DNA from: Pseudorhodoferax aquiterrae
GTDB lineage: Bacteria; Pseudomonadota; Gammaproteobacteria; Burkholderiales; Burkholderiaceae_C
DNA: 64,000 nt
NCBI RefSeq assembly: GCF_014652235.1
Contig: NZ_BMYK01000023.1
Coordinates: 46,196-110,195, forward strand
Direction of reading: 5' to 3'
Below the pieces are notes generated by a model. That model ran no database searches and was not told the DNA's origin. It saw nothing but the letters and a program-made list of their open reading frames with translations. The position numbers and the translations under genes are program-made. Of the stretch, positions 19,304-26,216 are shown piece after piece (within the stretch, counting starts at the first letter, position 1; each line of letters begins with the position of its first letter).

Positions 19304-20524
19304 ATGTCCACGCCTTCCCTGCCTTCCCCGCGCACCGCCTGGCCCATGCTGCTGGCGCTGACGGCCGCCTTCGCCATGAGCCAGGCCTTCCGCACGCTGG
19401 CCGCCATCCTGGCGCCGCCGCTGCAGGCCGAGTTCCATCTTTCGCCGCAACAGCTCGGCCTGTTCGCGGCGAGCTTCCATTTCGCCTTCGGTGCGCTGCA
19501 GCTGTTCATCGGCATCGGCATGGACCTGCACGGCCTTCGCCGCACCGTGCTGACGGCGTTTCCGCTGGCCATCGCGGGCGCGGCCGTGTCGGCGCTGGCC
19601 ACGGGCCAGGGCGGGCTGATCCTGGGCCAGCTGTTGATCGGCGTGGGCTGCGCGCCGGCCTTCCTGGCCTGCACGCTTTTCATCGCGCAGAACTTCCCGG
19701 CTGAGCGCTTTGCCATGCTGTCGGGCCTGGTGCTCATGCTGGGTGGCACGGGCATGCTGTTCACGGGCACGCCGCTGGCCTGGTTGATCGAGGCCCATGG
19801 CTGGCGCTGGGGCATGTGGCTGCTGGCGGCCGGCTCGGCCGCAGCCTGGGCGCTGGTCTGGTGGAAGGTGCCGCACCGGCCGCCTGCCGCCGCGGCGCGC
19901 GAATCGCTGGGCCAGGCCCTGCGCGCCTTTGGCGCGCTGTTCCTGATGCCGCACACCTGGGGCATCGTCTGCATGTCGGCCGTGAACTACGCCTCCTTCC
20001 TGACGCTGCGTGGCCTGTGGCTGGGCCCGATGCTGGTCGAGCGCCATGGGCTGTCGCTGCTCGTGAGCGGCCATGTGGCACTGCTGGTGTCGGTGGTCTC
20101 GCTGGTCAGCCCGCCGCTGTTCGGCCGCTTCGACCCCGGCGGCATGGCGGCGCGGCGCCGGCGCATCGGCCGCTGCACGCTGGCCATGGCGGCGTTGTTC
20201 GTGGCCATGGCGCTGCTGCGCGGTCTGGTGGCCGACGTGCTGCTGGCGGTGGCCGTGGCCTGCCTGTCCGGCTACATGGTGCTGCAGTACGCCGACGTGC
20301 GCGCCGCCTACCCGCCGGCCATGATCGGCCGCGCGCTGTCAGTGTTCACCATGGCCATGTTCATGGGCGTGGCGCTCATGCAATGGGGCACGGGCTGGGT
20401 GGCGGCACAGGCAGCCGGCTGGGGCGCAGAGACCTTCACGGCACCGCTGCTGGCGATCGCAGCGGCGCTGCTGCTGGGCGCACTGGCCTACCGCTGGCTG
20501 CCGCAGCCGCCTGCGTCGACTTGA
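19304..20524 (+). CDS. MFS transporter
   Basis: A 406-residue major facilitator with about 12 hydrophobic segments. The first-loop motif reads GIGMDLHGLRRTVL, a variant of the MFS GxxxDRxGRR signature, and a second-half counterpart is GRFDPGGMAARRRR. It starts 34 bases after the DUF1579 gene and could belong to that transcript. Direction and substrate are unknown; proteins of this shape include drug, sugar-acid and cyanate carriers. It converges with the response-regulator gene with a three-base gap. Confidence 0.85.
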   Translation: MSTPSLPSPRTAWPMLLALTAAFAMSQAFRTLAAILAPPLQAEFHLSPQQLGLFAASFHFAFGALQLFIGIGMDLHGLRRTVLTAFPLAIAGAAVSALATGQGGLILGQLLIGVGCAPAFLACTLFIAQNFPAERFAMLSGLVLMLGGTGMLFTGTPLAWLIEAHGWRWGMWLLAAGSAAAWALVWWKVPHRPPAAAARESLGQALRAFGALFLMPHTWGIVCMSAVNYASFLTLRGLWLGPMLVERHGLSLLVSGHVALLVSVVSLVSPPLFGRFDPGGMAARRRRIGRCTLAMAALFVAMALLRGLVADVLLAVAVACLSGYMVLQYADVRAAYPPAMIGRALSVFTMAMFMGVALMQWGTGWVAAQAAGWGAETFTAPLLAIAAALLLGALAYRWLPQPPAST

Positions 20525-20527
20525 GCG

Positions 20528-21184
20528 TCACGCATGGCCGACCTGCAGGTCGGCATACGACACCGCGTACTTCACCAGCGCGGCCTGGCCTTCGATGCGC
20601 AGCTTGCGGCGCAGGTGCAGCCGGTGCGTCTCCACCGTGCGCACCGAGGCGCCGAGCGCATCGGCGATCTCTCGGTTCGAGCAGCCGTCGGCCAGCAGCG
20701 AGAGCACGGCCGATTCCTTGGGCGTGAGATGGCCCCAGGCCCGTGTGACGGGCGGCGGCGCGGGCTCGATCGGCAGCGGCAGGCCCGGGCTGAAGTAGCG
20801 CCCGCCCGCGTGCACGGCGTCGATGGCCTCGACCAGGTGGTGGCCCGGGCCGTCCTTGAGCACATAGCCCTGCACCTGCAGCGCGACCGCGCGGCGCACG
20901 TACTCGGCGTCCTGGTGCATGGACAGCACCAGCAGCTTGAGCGCGGGAAAGCGCGTGCGGAACAGACCGGCCAGCTGGATGCCGCTGGCGTCCGGCATGC
21001 GGATGTCGGTGACCACGATGTCGGGCTGCAGCGTGGCGGCCAGCTCTTCGGCCTCGCGCACGCTGCCGGCCTCGCCGACGACGCGGATGTGCGGCGTGGC
21101 ATGCAGGCGCATGCGCACGCCGTCGCGCAGCAGCGGGTGGTCGTCGACCAGCAGCACGCGGACGGTGGCAGGTTCTTGGGTCAT
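20528..21184 (-). CDS. LuxR/NarL-type response regulator
   Basis: A 218-residue two-domain regulator. The receiver domain has the acidic pair VDD (13-15), phospho-acceptor Asp60 (VVTDIRMPD) and Lys in VLKDG; the C-terminal LuxR HTH reads LTPKESAVLSLLADGCSNREIADALG. It overlaps the kinase gene by four bases (TCAT on the plus strand), so the pair is one operon. Likely targets are the divergent RidA/PLP-enzyme genes across the 342-base promoter gap. This target assignment is inference from position. Confidence 0.92.
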   Translation of the reverse strand: MTQEPATVRVLLVDDHPLLRDGVRMRLHATPHIRVVGEAGSVREAEELAATLQPDIVVTDIRMPDASGIQLAGLFRTRFPALKLLVLSMHQDAEYVRRAVALQVQGYVLKDGPGHHLVEAIDAVHAGGRYFSPGLPLPIEPAPPPVTRAWGHLTPKESAVLSLLADGCSNREIADALGASVRTVETHRLHLRRKLRIEGQAALVKYAVSYADLQVGHA

Positions 21185-22614
21185 GGTGTGGACGAGGCCA
21201 GGGGCATCGGTGGAGTCGCGGAAACAGGCGCCGCACGCGCGGGCCCGGCAGCAGCCTGCGGCAAGGGCAGCCAGGCCGTGATGCACGTGCCGTGGCGGCC
21301 GGATTCGATGGACAGCGTGCCGCCCAGGCTCTCGGCACGCTCGCGCATGTTGCGCAGGCCGATGCCGCGCGTGCCGTCGCCGGTGACGCTGCGCAGGTCG
21401 AAGCCCCGGCCGTCGTCGACGACCTGCAGGCCGACGCCGCGGCGCTGACCGTCCAGCACGATGTCCACGCGCGAGGCCTGGGCGTGGTTGCGGCAGTTCT
21501 GCAAGGCTTCCTGTGCGATGCGGAACAGCACCGTGCCGTGCTCGGCCGGCAGCGGCCCGGTCGCACCCCGGCACACCAGACCGACCGCGAAGGCACCGCT
21601 TTCCTGCACCTGCTGCGCGAGCAGCGTGAGCGCCGGCGCCAGGCCCAGGTCGTCGAGCAGGGCCGGGCGCAGCCCGTGCGAGACGCGCCGGATCTCCACC
21701 AGCGCGCTGGACAGGCGCGCCAGCCCCTGGTCCAGCGCTTGGCGCGGCGCCGCCGGGGCGGCCGTGGCCGGGTCGGCCAGCTGCAGCTGCGCGGTCTCGA
21801 GCAGGAACTTGGACGAGGCCAGCACCTGCACCACGCCGTCGTGCAGCTCGCGCGCCACGCGCACGCGCTCGTCCTCCTGCGAACGCACCACGCGGCGCGC
21901 CAGGCGACGCAGCTTGTCGCTGGAGACGCGGTGGTCCTTGAGGTTGAGCACCAGGCCGCCCAGCCCGATCAGCACCACGCAGACCGCGGCAATGGCGTAG
22001 ATGCGCTGGCGCGTGGCTTCGATGTTGGTGCGCGCACCGCTCTCGATGGCCTGCAGCGCGCCCTGCACGTCGTCCAGGTAGATGCCGGTGCCGATCACCC
22101 AGTCCCAGCCCGGCACCGTGAGCACATAGGCCATCTTGGGCACGACCGACCGGGAGCTCGGCTTGCTCCAGCTGTAGTGCACCACGCCGCCGCCGCGGCG
22201 CGCGACATGGAGGATGCGCTGCGCCGAATCGGCGCCGGCCGGATCGTTGGGATCGCAGAAGTCCACGCCCTGCATGGGCAAGGTCTTGGGGTCGATCAGC
22301 AGCTGGCCATGCTGGTCGTAGACGAAGAAGTAGCCGTTCTCGCCGAACTGCATGCGCGCCAGCGTGGCCAGCGCCTGCTCCTTGCGGGCGCCGACCTCGC
22401 CCGGCCCCTCCGCGATGCGCACCAAGGTGTTGCGCGCAAGCTCGACGTAGTGCTTGAGCTCGGCCTCCTTGCTTTGCATGAAGGCCTTCTGCACGAGCGA
22501 TTGCTCCTCGCGCACGAGCTTGTAGGTCTGCTGCTGCATGGTGGCGCCCATGAGCAGCAGGGCGACCACGATGGGAACCCCCGAGAGCAGCACCAGCTTG
22601 AGGCGCAACTGCAT
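21181..22614 (-). CDS. Membrane histidine kinase with extracytoplasmic Cache domain
   Basis: A 477-residue sensor. It has one membrane segment near residues 5-25, a single Cache domain (about 30-200, with GENGYFFVYDQHGQLLIDP and WDWVIGTGIYLDDV), a second segment (about 205-223), a HisKA_3 dimerisation helix with His258 (ARELHDGVVQ), and a HATPase with DDGRGFD and GTRGIGLRNMRERA. Cache domains bind small ligands such as carboxylates or amines in the periplasm. The start at 22614 places the first helix at the terminus; a longer frame to 22668 is less likely. It is paired with the overlapping LuxR-type regulator and is divergent from an exported enzyme pair. Confidence 0.92.
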   Translation of the reverse strand: MQLRLKLVLLSGVPIVVALLLMGATMQQQTYKLVREEQSLVQKAFMQSKEAELKHYVELARNTLVRIAEGPGEVGARKEQALATLARMQFGENGYFFVYDQHGQLLIDPKTLPMQGVDFCDPNDPAGADSAQRILHVARRGGGVVHYSWSKPSSRSVVPKMAYVLTVPGWDWVIGTGIYLDDVQGALQAIESGARTNIEATRQRIYAIAAVCVVLIGLGGLVLNLKDHRVSSDKLRRLARRVVRSQEDERVRVARELHDGVVQVLASSKFLLETAQLQLADPATAAPAAPRQALDQGLARLSSALVEIRRVSHGLRPALLDDLGLAPALTLLAQQVQESGAFAVGLVCRGATGPLPAEHGTVLFRIAQEALQNCRNHAQASRVDIVLDGQRRGVGLQVVDDGRGFDLRSVTGDGTRGIGLRNMRERAESLGGTLSIESGRHGTCITAWLPLPQAAAGPARAAPVSATPPMPLASSTP

Positions 22615-22956
22615 CTCAGCGCCCCACTCCGGGGACCCGGTGCACCAAATTTTCGGAATGTGTAGCAACGTGCATGGCGAGCGTGAATGTGCAGAGCAAA
22701 CCCGGTGCCAGCCAGTGACGTTTCATTTTGAAACACTGCTGCGCCGCGGCAAAAACAGGCGTCGTGCGGCCCTGCTGCGTACTACCACGTAAGGGAAATG
22801 AAACGTCGCGCACAGCGTTGCCATTCCTAGAATTCATCGCAAGTTAGACCGCATTGCACTGCAGCAAAACGTCCCGGGAGGGTCTGGCTTCTTGTCGCTG
22901 CGCAGGGTCCCCAGCCCCGCGCGGTTCTCGATTCCAGAAGTAGGAAAGGTGGCTCC
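22615..22956. promoter_or_regulatory. Divergent control region, kinase versus RidA/PLP-enzyme genes
   Basis: This 342-base gap is less GC-rich than its surroundings and has no convincing gene. It contains a perfect 12-base inverted repeat, GACGTTTCATTT at 22717-22728 against AAATGAAACGTC at 22796-22807, and the smaller palindrome GTTTCATTTTGAAAC at 22720-22734. Between the arms lies GTACTACCACGTAAGGG (22779-22795), an element of the general kind bound by LuxR-type response regulators. I cannot place -35/-10 boxes confidently. Confidence 0.5.
22717..22807. repeat. Perfect 12-base inverted repeat pair in the kinase/RidA promoter gap
   Basis: The arms are 22717-22728 and 22796-22807, separated by 67 bases. 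A dyad this long in a promoter gap may be a pair of binding sites for one regulator, or a weak long-range stem. The left arm also forms a short palindrome with its own downstream bases. Confidence 0.5.
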
Positions 22957-23430
22957 ATGCCCAACAACATCCGTGCCGGCCGCTTCACCAAGGTGGTGGC
23001 CGGCTGCACTGCAGCCTTGCTCATGACGGCCTGCGCCATGCCGACCCAACGCACCGTGCTGTCCACGACCGGCGTGCCGCCGGCGATCGGCCCGTACTCG
23101 CAGATGGTTTCCCACGGCAACACGCTGTACCTCTCGGGCGTGATCCCGCTCAACGAGGCCGGCAACGCCGTCGTCGGCACCACCATCGAGGAGCAGACCC
23201 ATGCCGTGCTGCGCTACATCGGCACGATGCTCAAGTCCCAGGGGCTGGACTACACCGACGTGCTCTCGTCCTCGGTGTTCATGAAGGACCTCAACGAGTT
23301 CGCCGCGATGAACAAGGTCTACGGGGAGTACTTCAAGCCCGGCAATGCGCCCGTGCGCGCCACCGTCGAAGTGGCACGTTTGCCGCGTGACGTGAAGGTC
23401 GAGATCGCCGTCATCGTCGGTCGCCGTTGA
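22957..23430 (+). CDS. Exported RidA-family (YjgF) enamine/imine deaminase, probable lipoprotein
   Basis: A 157-residue protein: a 25-residue signal peptide ending MTA-Cys26, then a RidA domain. The domain keeps GPYSQ, the LYLSG strand and Arg134 in PVRATVEVARLP, which corresponds to the RidA catalytic arginine. RidA hydrolyses reactive enamine/imine intermediates made by PLP enzymes. Most RidA proteins are cytosolic, whereas this one should be secreted and perhaps lipid-anchored; Met at the -3 lipobox position is atypical, so anchoring is uncertain. The following gene encodes an exported PLP enzyme 22 bases downstream, which suggests they work together in the periplasm. Control by the divergent Cache kinase system is likely. 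Confidence 0.87.
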   Translation: MPNNIRAGRFTKVVAGCTAALLMTACAMPTQRTVLSTTGVPPAIGPYSQMVSHGNTLYLSGVIPLNEAGNAVVGTTIEEQTHAVLRYIGTMLKSQGLDYTDVLSSSVFMKDLNEFAAMNKVYGEYFKPGNAPVRATVEVARLPRDVKVEIAVIVGRR

Positions 23431-23452
23431 ACCCCTCTGGAGCACCCACACC

Positions 23453-24922
23453 ATGCAAGACCAACAGATCGTCACCGCCCGCACCGCAAACCTCGAGGCA
23501 CTGGCTGCGGCCGACACCACGCGCTGGCCGTCCAAGCGGCGCGACTTCCTGCGCATGCTGGGCTACGGTGCCGGCGCCGCCGCGCTGGGCCCGGCGCTCA
23601 TGGCCTGCGGCAGCAGCAACTCGGCCACGCCGGCCGCCGAGCTGCGTGCCCAGCTCGCGGCCAACGAGGCCTTCTGGACCGACGTGCAGAACATGTTCAC
23701 GCTGGACCCGGCCAAGACCTTCATGAACATCGGCACGGCCGGCTCCATGCCCAAGGTGGCGCTGGACCTGTTCGACACCGAGAACCGCAAGAAGGCCCGC
23801 GAATCGGGCAACGGCTACACGGACCACAACGCGCTGCGCGCGCTGGTGGCGCCGGCCTTCGGCGTGGATGTGGACGAGCTGGCCTTCTCGGCCAACACCT
23901 CCTCGGGCATGTGCCACGCCATCCTGGGCATTCCCTGGCAGCGCGGCGACGTGGTGGTCACGACCAACCACGAGCATGGCGGCGGCAACACGCCGCTCAA
24001 CATCGCGGTGGACCGCTACGGCATCGAGATCTCGCGCATCGAGATGCCGGTGGGCAACAACCAGACCGCGGCGACCTACCAGAACCTGTTCGACGAGCGC
24101 ATCCGCACGCTCAAGGCGGCCGGCAAAAACGTGCGCGCCGTGATGTGGTCCTCACCGACCTACGTGACCGGCACGCTGCTGCCGATCGCCGAGATCATGG
24201 AGGTGGTGAAGACGCACGGGCTGATCAGCATCGTGGACGGCGCCCACCTGCCGGGCATGATGCACTACGACTACGGCGCGCTGGGCATGGACTTCATGTC
24301 CGGCGCCGGCCACAAGTGGCAGTGCGGCCCGGGCTCCACCGGCATCCTGATCATCCGCAACAAGATCCGCGCCTCCAACCCGCTGCCGCTGCCCAAGTGG
24401 TACCCGGTGCACACCAGCACCTACTCCACGCGCGAACGCACGACCAACGGCACGGCCACCTACGACATCGCGGCCAGCGTGACCAGCTGCGGCAGCACGC
24501 ACACGCCGCTGTTCCAGGCCCTGGTCAGCGCCTGCCAGCTGTGGGACCAGATCGGCCGCAAGAACATCGAGACCTACGACCTCACGCTGTCGGCCTACCT
24601 CAAGGAGAAGATCGTCGAGCGCTGGGGCGTGGAGTCGCTGTACTCGCCCAAGGACGACCCCAAGCTGGTGTGCGCGCTGACCTCGTTCAACCCGTTCCGC
24701 AACAAGGACGACGTGATGAACTCGGCCAAGGCCACGCAGTTCGTCTCGCGCCTGCAGGCCGAGTACCCGCAGGGCCTGATCATCCGCAACGCCAGCTTCC
24801 CGGTGATCGGCGCCGCCTCGAACCACTACGCGATGCGCGTCTCCACGCACCTGTGGCACGACGCCAACGACATCGACGCGCTGGTCGATGCCATGTGGGA
24901 CCTGTCGGGCAAGATGGCCTGA
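23453..24922 (+). CDS. Tat-exported class V aminotransferase-fold PLP enzyme
   Basis: A 489-residue fold-type I PLP enzyme of the cysteine desulfurase / isopenicillin-N-epimerase-like group. The N-terminus carries a Tat motif SKRRDFLRM (27-35), a hydrophobic stretch and Leu-Met-Ala-Cys52, a possible lipobox, followed by a Ser/Asn linker. In the core, Asp262 and His265 (VDGAHLPG) and Lys288 (SGAGHKWQCGP) are the expected PLP-contacting and Schiff-base residues. Tat export carries folded, cofactor-loaded proteins, which fits a periplasmic PLP enzyme. With the exported RidA just upstream it may run a beta-elimination, deamination or epimerisation outside the cytoplasm. The substrate is unknown. 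Confidence 0.88.
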   Translation: MQDQQIVTARTANLEALAAADTTRWPSKRRDFLRMLGYGAGAAALGPALMACGSSNSATPAAELRAQLAANEAFWTDVQNMFTLDPAKTFMNIGTAGSMPKVALDLFDTENRKKARESGNGYTDHNALRALVAPAFGVDVDELAFSANTSSGMCHAILGIPWQRGDVVVTTNHEHGGGNTPLNIAVDRYGIEISRIEMPVGNNQTAATYQNLFDERIRTLKAAGKNVRAVMWSSPTYVTGTLLPIAEIMEVVKTHGLISIVDGAHLPGMMHYDYGALGMDFMSGAGHKWQCGPGSTGILIIRNKIRASNPLPLPKWYPVHTSTYSTRERTTNGTATYDIAASVTSCGSTHTPLFQALVSACQLWDQIGRKNIETYDLTLSAYLKEKIVERWGVESLYSPKDDPKLVCALTSFNPFRNKDDVMNSAKATQFVSRLQAEYPQGLIIRNASFPVIGAASNHYAMRVSTHLWHDANDIDALVDAMWDLSGKMA

Positions 24923-24941: not shown

Positions 24942-25859
24942 TCAGCCCAGCTCGGGCGCCAGGCCCGGCGCCTTGTCCATGTCGGCCCCGTTGTACAGCT
25001 TGTGCTGGGCAGCGGGGCTGCCCACGTCGGACACCACGGCCAGGCGCCATTGCGGGTCGCGCCGCGCGAAGGCGCGCTGCCCGGCCGTCAGCGCATAGCC
25101 GGTCGCCCCCGTGGCCGTGCCCTTCACGACGAGCTTGAGCAGGGTCTTGCCCTTCTTGTCGCGCACCTCGGCCTCGTAGCCCGGGTTGGGCGCCTCCAGC
25201 AGCTCGGTCTTGTAGCCGTAGCCGGCGAAATGGCGCGTCAGGTGGTCCAGCGCGGCGCTGTGCAGGTCGCCGCCACCGCCGACCTCGATGGCCGGCGCAT
25301 CGGGCGCGGCGTCCACGATGCCGGCACGCGCACGCGCAGCCTGGATCTCGGCCTCGTTCGGCACCCAGCCGCGCGGGCCGCGCACCAGCACCACATGGCG
25401 CTGCTCGGGGCTCCAGACGGCCACGTGCCAGGGCTCGTCGTCGGGCACGCGCACCGACATGCGGGCGGCCTTGTCGGTCTCGATGTCGGCGATGGCCACG
25501 CGGTTGGTCTGCAGCACGGCGCGCAGGGGCTGGTCGGCGTCCAGCGCCCGCTTGATGAGCTGGATGCGGTCCTTGGTGCGCTGGATGCGCAGGTCGGTGC
25601 GCTCGCCGCCGCCGATGCGGTGCAGCGGGTCGAGCGACTCGAGCAGGAACCAGCGCCCACCCTCGCCCACGCTGACGAGCTCGGCCCAGATGGTCACGAT
25701 GATGTTGTCGCCGGTCGCCAGCCAGGCCAGGTCGGAGGCCGTGTCGCGCGCGTCGAACACGCCCATCTTGGCGATGATCTCCACCGGCGTGCGTTTGTCG
25801 CCGGACAGGCGTTTCTCGTTGATGACCGCCAGGACGGCGGGTGCGACTTCTTTGTCCAT
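24942..25859 (-). CDS. Uncharacterised protein with DUF3883-like (nuclease-fold) C-terminus
   Basis: A 305-residue protein starting at ATG 25859 (MDKEVAPAV). The first half has no recognised family. The C-terminal part (about 210-290) resembles DUF3883: AALDHLTRHFAGYGYKTELL, YEAEVRDKKGK, LVVKGT and ALTAGQRAFARR. DUF3883 has a restriction-endonuclease-like fold, but in the EVK-type motif the acidic residue is replaced by Val (LVVKGT), so nuclease activity may be lost. The gene stands alone between the exported PLP enzyme (convergent) and a small helical protein, with a hairpin in front. The function is unknown. Confidence 0.75.
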   Translation of the reverse strand: MDKEVAPAVLAVINEKRLSGDKRTPVEIIAKMGVFDARDTASDLAWLATGDNIIVTIWAELVSVGEGGRWFLLESLDPLHRIGGGERTDLRIQRTKDRIQLIKRALDADQPLRAVLQTNRVAIADIETDKAARMSVRVPDDEPWHVAVWSPEQRHVVLVRGPRGWVPNEAEIQAARARAGIVDAAPDAPAIEVGGGGDLHSAALDHLTRHFAGYGYKTELLEAPNPGYEAEVRDKKGKTLLKLVVKGTATGATGYALTAGQRAFARRDPQWRLAVVSDVGSPAAQHKLYNGADMDKAPGLAPELG

Positions 25860-25870
25860 GGAAAACAGGA

Positions 25871-25895
25871 GGGCCGGTCTCGACCGGCCCTTTTT
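25871..25895 (+). terminator. Strong intrinsic terminator-like hairpin with T run
   Basis: GGGCCGGT (25871-25878) and ACCGGCCC (25883-25890) pair perfectly around CTCG and are followed by TTTTT. It is oriented for plus-strand transcription although both neighbouring genes are on the minus strand. On the minus strand its tail (TCCTGTTTT) is only moderately T-rich. It may stop read-through from either side or attenuate the downstream minus-strand gene. Confidence 0.65.
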
Positions 25896-25918
25896 CTGGG
25901 GGGTGGAAGGAGGGGGGC

Positions 25919-26197
25919 TCAGCCGCGCGGTGGCGCGGCGGCCTTGTCCAGCGCGGTGTTGACCTCGTCCAGCGTCTCGGCCGACTGGGTCAGCGTCTTC
26001 TCGACGGCGCCCGTGTGGCCCAGCGCCTGCTCGATCTCGCGCGTGCGCGCTTCCTCGCTCAGGTGGGTGTCGAGCACGGTGTTGGCCACGGCCAGGTCGT
26101 CGGCCGCCTGCCGGATGTCGGCGGCGACCTCCTTGGCCTTTTCGATCGCCTGCTCCAGGTGCTTGGCGGCCTGGGCATCGTTGGAAGGCTGGGACAT
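25919..26197 (-). CDS. Small helical, charged hypothetical protein
   Basis: A 92-residue protein, MSQPSNDAQ... to KAAAPPRG, almost entirely helix-forming and rich in Ala, Glu, Asp and Lys with heptad-like spacing (coiled-coil tendency). It has no signal peptide and no recognised domain. The length and regular composition fit a real gene with its own start at 26197. It lies downstream of gap on the same strand, behind two hairpins, so separate transcription is likely. The function is unknown; a phasin- or scaffold-like role would be speculation. Confidence 0.65.
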   Translation of the reverse strand: MSQPSNDAQAAKHLEQAIEKAKEVAADIRQAADDLAVANTVLDTHLSEEARTREIEQALGHTGAVEKTLTQSAETLDEVNTALDKAAAPPRG

Positions 26198-26216
26198 GGT
26201 GGAACTTCTGGGACAA

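Follow-up and report, generated by a model that had tools for sequence, protein, structure and literature searches.

Within a 64,000-nucleotide stretch of the genome of Pseudorhodoferax aquiterrae (contig NZ_BMYK01000023.1, positions 46,196 to 110,195 of the forward strand; the whole stretch is called the window below), two adjacent genes on the plus strand, separated by 22 bp, encode a protein of the RidA family and a class-V pyridoxal 5'-phosphate (PLP) enzyme, both of which are predicted to be exported. The two open reading frames (ORFs) had been located correctly in a preliminary description of this DNA, made from the nucleotide sequence. In window coordinates, the features of the pair are:

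22957–23430, plus strand: RidA-family protein of 157 amino acids, predicted lipoprotein (PF01042 and TIGR00004 profiles; lipobox kept in relatives)
22957–23034, plus strand: signal sequence of the RidA protein (residues 1–25) and its lipobox Cys26, invariant in a 27-row RidA alignment
23356–23358, plus strand: Arg134 of the RidA protein, in alignment with the motif ARSAVEVARLP in a RidA of known structure
23453–24922, plus strand: class-V (fold type I) PLP enzyme of 489 amino acids, predicted lipoprotein of the twin-arginine translocation (Tat) pathway (PF00266 and conserved signal motifs)
23453–23608, plus strand: Tat signal of the PLP enzyme, with Arg29-Arg30 at 23537–23542 and lipobox Cys52 at 23606–23608
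24314–24316, plus strand: Lys288 of the PLP enzyme, the predicted Schiff-base lysine, aligned with K223 of the cyst(e)ine lyase C-DES

Assignment of the first gene product to the RidA family is based on a score of 119.4 bits with Pfam family PF01042 and on one of 128.5 bits with TIGR00004, which exceeds the curated cut-off of 106.25 and places the protein in the RidA subfamily by profile. Its N-terminus is a short hydrophobic signal that ends in LMTAC26; it lacks a twin-arginine and, by motif, resembles the signal of a lipoprotein exported by the Sec pathway. The earlier reading of a signal ending at Cys26 in a protein that had kept its catalytic Arg134 was borne out, residue 26 being Cys and residue 134 being Arg within a strand that matches the RATVEVARLP catalytic motif. 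Tyr47, Arg134 and Glu149, presumably all residues of the active site, are present, and we take the catalytic Arg to be R105 in the numbering of Escherichia coli. All 27 of the exported RidAs that were aligned have this Arg, and the motif around it was matched by 119 of the 120 best-listed relatives. By profile, then, the protein is still a RidA, one that departs from the usual signal-less cytosolic form and would belong to an exported group.

For the second gene product, PF00266 was the sole Pfam family to score above its cut-off (83.6 bits; gathering score 21.5). Among solved proteins, those best matched by a profile of the PLP enzyme were C-DES (91.5 bits) and PvdN (64.4 bits), followed by a Thermococcus cysteine desulfurase (63.6 bits) and Egt2 (63.2 bits); the nearest structure and fold is that of PvdN, and identity by structural alignment amounts to 22% with C-DES and 17% with Egt2. 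Lys288, Asp262 and His175 align with the PLP lysine, the Asp and the stacking His of a C-DES/Egt2-type site (K223 of C-DES, the counterpart of Lys288, is Ala in the mutant structure 1n2t). These residues, like His265 and Arg462, show no variation across the 39 relatives aligned; Glu replaces His175 in four distant rows. The 39-row alignment was drawn from a word search and is free of pattern-selection bias; the invariance of Cys291 across the 80 public-genome loci introduced below is partly a selection effect, the loci having been picked with the patterns AGHKWQC and NIGT[AG]GSM. A cysteine desulfurase of the SufS/IscS type was considered and rejected, as the catalytic-loop Cys is lacking: no Cys occurs at window-protein positions 412–462 in the 39 rows, with the loop before Arg462 placed by alignment and only columns present in the window protein included.

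The PLP enzyme begins with KRRDFLRM, containing Arg29 and Arg30, and continues with a hydrophobic stretch that leads to LMAC52, in agreement with the Tat motif and lipobox-like Cys52 reported for it earlier. Signal calls throughout were made from motifs and conservation. Arg29, Arg30, Phe32 and Arg34 are invariant in all 39 aligned PLP relatives, and the position of Cys52 is occupied by Cys in 32 of them. Among the best-listed PLP relatives (the best 120 of 633), 112 combine a twin-arginine with a lipobox, seven have the twin-arginine only and one has a late start; a lipobox was found in 117 of the best-listed RidA relatives (the best 120 of 2402). Another classifier, applied to the same lists, returned 107 PLP enzymes and 118 RidAs. 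Judged by these motifs, the signals are family traits of both proteins; conservation in orthologs, on which the proposal of export had been made to depend, was found on both sides, and no refutation arose. The description of the two export signals as matched held in part: both genes carry one and both signals are conserved, but their types differ, that of the PLP enzyme being Tat and that of RidA being Sec-like. Directly after the lipobox Cys, the PLP enzymes have Gly in 74 cases, Ser in 30 and Asn in three, and the RidAs have Ala in 108, Ser in five, Thr in three and Val in two; Asp was seen at this position in neither. Under the +2 rule of E. coli, a residue other than Asp at this position directs a lipoprotein to the outer membrane, and this destination is therefore predicted for both proteins.

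A hydrophobic N-terminal extension was also present in 113 of 116 members of a further related RidA set (the best 120 of 7998, less four top matches of 292–330 residues that were left out of the classification); 73 of these extensions resemble signals cleaved by signal peptidase I (SPase I), 18 contain a lipobox match and 22 have no clear cleavage motif. The four proteins left out (P0241–P0244) belong to the RidA family, were the top scorers in that search and are possibly of double length. Many alphaproteobacterial RidAs, from Bosea and others, have SPase-I-like signals (P0246–P0360), and at two Microvirga loci (L063 and L065) the PLP gene adjoins an alphaproteobacterial RidA gene. None of 30 control RidAs of the same bacterial class, judged by eye and by hydropathy, had a signal-like start; these controls were 30 of 46 matches from other genomes of the class, with L166 and L167 lying within longer open frames. 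As a weaker control, no Tat motif was found in the four other readable class-V proteins of the window's own genome, for which five of eight loci were readable (proteins L001–L005, the fifth being encoded by the window's own PLP gene). A gene for TatC is present in this genome.

The linkage of the two genes was followed through the family, the class and public genomes. Of 150 genomes of the taxonomic family, 11 were matched by the PLP profile (E ≤ 1e-60), and these 11 were also the ones matched by the RidA profile (E ≤ 1e-38, a cut-off not equal to the first); every pair is adjacent and on the same strand. With the window's own genome counted, the 11 span 10 genera, and the ten other pairs have signals on both proteins, as does that of the window. 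Across the class, each profile matched one of 274 genomes, the window's own. These genome searches scored only the top first-pass candidates (25 of 98 for the RidA profile in the own genome), and a search of the phylum with a profile of the downstream-type RidA matched one of 299 genomes at a cut-off that was too strict and missed the own genome, so that this result is hardly informative on exported RidAs elsewhere.

At 80 public-genome loci, kept from 89 found, a RidA gene lies beside the PLP gene and on the same strand in 54, upstream of it in 36 and downstream in 18; conserved gene pairs in other genomes, for which the preliminary description had proposed a search, do therefore exist. The loci nearest to that of the window are from Pseudorhodoferax and from one strain labelled Variovorax boronicumulans. 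By motif, both proteins have a lipobox in 39 of the 54 paired loci; the remaining 15 consist of six in which the PLP enzyme has a lipobox and RidA an SPase-I-like signal, five with the reverse, one with SPase-I-like signals on both and three with an unreadable start or frame. Given this mixture of signal types, it is export of both proteins that appears to be conserved and not one identical signal.

No RidA gene accompanies the PLP gene at 26 of the 80 loci. Twenty-one of these represent gamma- and deltaproteobacterial relatives with 31–38% identity (L072–L080, L082–L087 and L089–L094), and the other five are L056, L058, L061, L068 and L095, with L058, L068 and L095 at or close to the end of a contig; contig ends may account for the lack of RidA beside these three and at some of the gammaproteobacterial loci. 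Tat-motif PLP relatives without RidA were seen in Shewanella, Psychromonas, Vibrio rumoiensis, Desulfobacteraceae and others (L072–L094). In Herbaspirillum robiniae (L056), a PLP relative of 65% identity has a twin-arginine and no lipobox, with no RidA gene within 17 kb, and in Paracidovorax konjaci (L069, 7950–9608) the PLP gene is read in two overlapping frames, perhaps as a result of a frameshift or sequencing error.

On a RidA tree (126 columns, midpoint root, bootstrap not settled; duplicates, the poorly placed row L039 and Rid sequences with no PLP gene next to them were left off), 57 PLP-linked RidAs are separated by one branch (99/90) from 31 cytosolic RidAs, namely the 30 class controls and that of E. 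coli. The exported group consists of subgroups of 36 rows (100/100) and 21 rows (94/68), and nearest to it are the RidA of E. coli and one control (L164). At least three changes of gene order are forced on this tree and the genes are nonetheless still adjacent, and hence their linkage has outlasted rearrangement. For the most part, upstream partners scored approximately 240–278 bits and downstream partners 152–169 bits, a split that had suggested two independent recruitments of RidA; this reading was dropped on account of the grouping of all 57 together.

The genome that contains the window (7.1 Mb in 94 contigs) has 15 Rid-family and 18 class-V matches, and the exported RidA is its sole protein above the TIGR00004 cut-off; a signal-less Rid protein on contig C12 scored 105.0 bits, just under the 106.25 required. 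Those other Rid genes with short, clear frames (L099, L100, L102, L103 and L105) encode no signal, others lying in longer open frames. Neighbouring Rid and class-V genes on contig C4 (L097) were set aside as a coincidence, signals being absent and the PLP gene looking IscS-like.

Also linked to the pair, and absent from the preliminary description, are genes for a sensor kinase and its regulator, from which the RidA gene is separated by a divergent promoter region:

21181–22614, minus strand: sensor histidine kinase with sCache_2 and HisKA_3 domains, start set at an internal Met
20528–21184, minus strand: LuxR/NarL-type response regulator, start set by overlap with the kinase stop
22615–22956, no strand assigned: divergent intergenic region with candidate regulator sites, inverted copies of GACGTTTCATTT

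The sCache_2 domain of the kinase sits between two hydrophobic segments that peak near residues 20–45 and 221–245 of the ORF. The best NCBIfam matches are MctS for the kinase (378.5 bits, under the cut-off of 700) and MctR for the regulator (196.3 bits, under the cut-off of 300). The two genes are linked at 37 of the 80 loci, and RidA is present at every one of these 37; they were also found near seven of the 11 pairs from the taxonomic-family genomes, that of the window included. They are divergent at most linked loci; in Cupriavidus they share the strand of the PLP and RidA genes and directly precede them. The 12-bp GACGTTTCATTT occurs at 22717–22728 (plus) and 22796–22807 (minus), with arms that are 100% complementary and 67 nt apart, and these are its only two matches at one mismatch or fewer in the 64-kb window, where 0.04 would be expected. 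This inverted pair in the divergent promoter region is a candidate operator; TTTCAT is found at four of the five nearest loci and at none of the eight Cupriavidus loci examined.

At the 21 gamma- and deltaproteobacterial loci, a family-3 solute-binding protein is encoded near the PLP gene in 16 and a GGDEF-EAL relative in 16, families that were assigned by Pfam run on examples only; at L093, the PLP, solute-binding and GGDEF-EAL genes all run in one direction. Convergent with the regulator gene of the window is one for a major facilitator superfamily transporter (19304–20524), a relative of which, at more than 150 bits, adjoins the system only at L017–L021 of the 80 loci. A 424-amino-acid ORF on the minus strand (24945–26216), with no Pfam match, lies downstream of the PLP gene.

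RidA is known as a cytosolic guard of PLP enzymes. From the sequence comparisons, the conserved pair is well supported, and the breakdown of an amino acid and of a reactive by-product outside the cytoplasm is likely. The earlier proposal that enamine/imine chemistry takes place in the periplasm and is cleared by RidA stands as the simplest reading, because the strand-matched pair is conserved and export is predicted in nearly all of its members; its standing is that of a prediction. More specifically, we assign a probability of about one half to the adjacent pair functioning as a periplasmic amino-acid lyase or deaminase, in which the PLP enzyme frees an enamine or imine that RidA hydrolyses to a keto acid and ammonia. 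The PLP enzyme would fold with its PLP in the cytosol and exit by Tat, as PvdN does, and RidA would exit by Sec, both becoming lipoproteins that the E. coli +2 rule would send to the outer membrane. The PLP would be regenerated by the reaction itself, either a β-elimination like those of C-DES and Egt2 or an oxidative deamination; a self-regenerating reaction is preferred because transamination would depend on a periplasmic amino acceptor and would give no reason for RidA. The enamine or imine from the elimination or oxidation would then pass to RidA for conversion to keto acid and ammonia, and the persistence of the exported pair despite rearrangement points to the product of the neighbouring enzyme as what RidA acts on. 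Either the amino acid or the keto acid may be the ligand sensed by the divergent Cache-domain kinase, whose regulator would control the pair, perhaps through the inverted TTTCAT sites.

An extension of this scheme is put forward tentatively, as possible but well short of probable: anchored in the envelope, the pair would convert an extracellular amino acid through a free enamine to a keto acid, with clearance by the lipoprotein RidA and a read-out by the Cache kinase, such that amino acids would be sensed or used without import. On the same terms, the kinase would be replaced in the gammaproteobacterial relatives by the family-3 solute-binding protein and the GGDEF-EAL protein.

Foremost among the rival readings is a PvdN-like oxidation that acts on a larger substrate after its export: an O2-dependent decarboxylation or oxidation would tailor an amino-acid residue in a peptide or siderophore that is exported, leaving RidA to remove an imine by-product. 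Although the PLP enzyme has the twin-arginine expected of a PvdN, its score with the NCBIfam model for PvdN (NF051467) was 69.8 bits against an equivalog cut-off of 650, and a Cache kinase for small ligands would better suit a free small molecule; the few shared neighbour clusters examined were of other kinds, no genome search for peptide-synthetase or siderophore clusters having been made. We consider tailoring of this type unlikely. That the exported RidA is a periplasmic chaperone or ligand binder for the PLP enzyme, and not a deaminase, seems more improbable still; the RidA of E. coli is annotated both as an enamine/imine deaminase and as a redox-regulated chaperone, and a dedicated helper would fit the strict one-partner pairing, but retention of the catalytic Arg in all of the aligned exported RidAs argues against this role, and Tat substrates, which fold prior to export, have less need of help in the periplasm. 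Only a slim chance is given to a periplasmic transaminase or epimerase from which RidA merely prevents accidental damage: the class-V fold, the names 'isopenicillin-N epimerase' and 'aminotransferase' in source records and the precedent of PtaA for transamination in the periplasm are compatible with it, but the names appear to be automatic and, with free enamine not a main product of either reaction, the strict linkage to RidA would be hard to explain. Chance adjacency of genes with misread N-termini, for which one could cite the 15 Rid-family and 18 class-V matches in this genome, such that some neighbours are expected, and the signal-less Rid-like gene near the IscS-like gene on contig C4, is scarcely credible in the face of adjacency in 11 of 11 family genomes and at 54 of 80 loci and of signals conserved in both families.

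If the lyase/deaminase reading is correct, the existence of a clade of exported RidAs tied to one exported PLP enzyme would mean that the periplasm, too, experiences enamine stress or makes use of enamine chemistry. Breakdown of an amino acid and clearance of the by-product outside the cytoplasm would be chemistry rarely reported there. The pair would provide a two-gene test case for why RidA is retained where water is plentiful, in culturable soil bacteria such as Pseudorhodoferax and Cupriavidus necator, and the sensor kinase linked to the pair gives a way of approaching the substrate.

The view that no periplasmic system of this sort had been described needs correction, as PvdN, PtaA, the Chlamydomonas LAO1/RIDA proteins and a Gluconacetobacter cluster precede it in the available portions of the respective papers (PMC6206403; PMC10805672; PMC5053998). 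Each half of the system thus has precedent; for the combination itself, with both the PLP enzyme and RidA exported, no paper was found in the open-licence literature of PMC. A paper on the genomics of the Rid family makes no mention of signal peptide, periplasm, secreted, lipoprotein or targeting (PMC4433059), and in the available text of two others, Rid-family genes are described or implied to be cytoplasmic (PMC7688666; PMC9537276). A class-V aminotransferase of 41.6 kDa from Delftia proteomics, as it appears in the available part of that study (PMC4863599), was not used, being too small for this family of approximately 490 residues.

Both PvdN and PtaA are described as Tat-exported periplasmic PLP enzymes in the accessible part of their source (PMC6206403). 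PvdN shares with the window's enzyme a class-V PLP domain of fold type I, export by Tat and the best structural match; it differs in lying within the pyoverdine cluster, with no RidA partner mentioned in that part of the source, and the sequence score is far under the cut-off. PtaA, likened here by its description and not by sequence, is also a PLP enzyme that is active in the periplasm following Tat export, but it is a transaminase. In Chlamydomonas, the periplasmic L-amino-acid oxidase LAO1 has an LAO2/RIDA partner (PMC10805672), and a Tat-type oxidase together with RidA has been proposed for the lao-cccA-ridA cluster of Gluconacetobacter, the export of its RidA not being stated (PMC5053998; both as given in the available text). 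These systems resemble the present one in the deamination of amino acids outside the cytoplasm with RidA encoded alongside, but on these accounts their first enzyme is a flavin L-amino-acid oxidase and here it is a PLP enzyme of PF00266. The MctS/MctR pair, which regulates the alanine/pyruvate/lactate permease MctP in rhizobia according to the available part of its source (PMC9100948), likewise combines a Cache-domain kinase with a LuxR-type regulator and provides the best NCBIfam matches, while the window's kinase and regulator fall under both equivalog cut-offs. C-DES and Egt2 are among the best matches of the PLP-enzyme profile in the PDB, with the PLP lysine aligned. We know of no export signal or RidA partner for either of them. 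With the cytosolic RidA of the E. coli type, finally, the window's RidA shares the TIGR00004 subfamily and its active-site residues; it differs in being a predicted lipoprotein, in its separate position on the tree and in being tied to one PLP gene.
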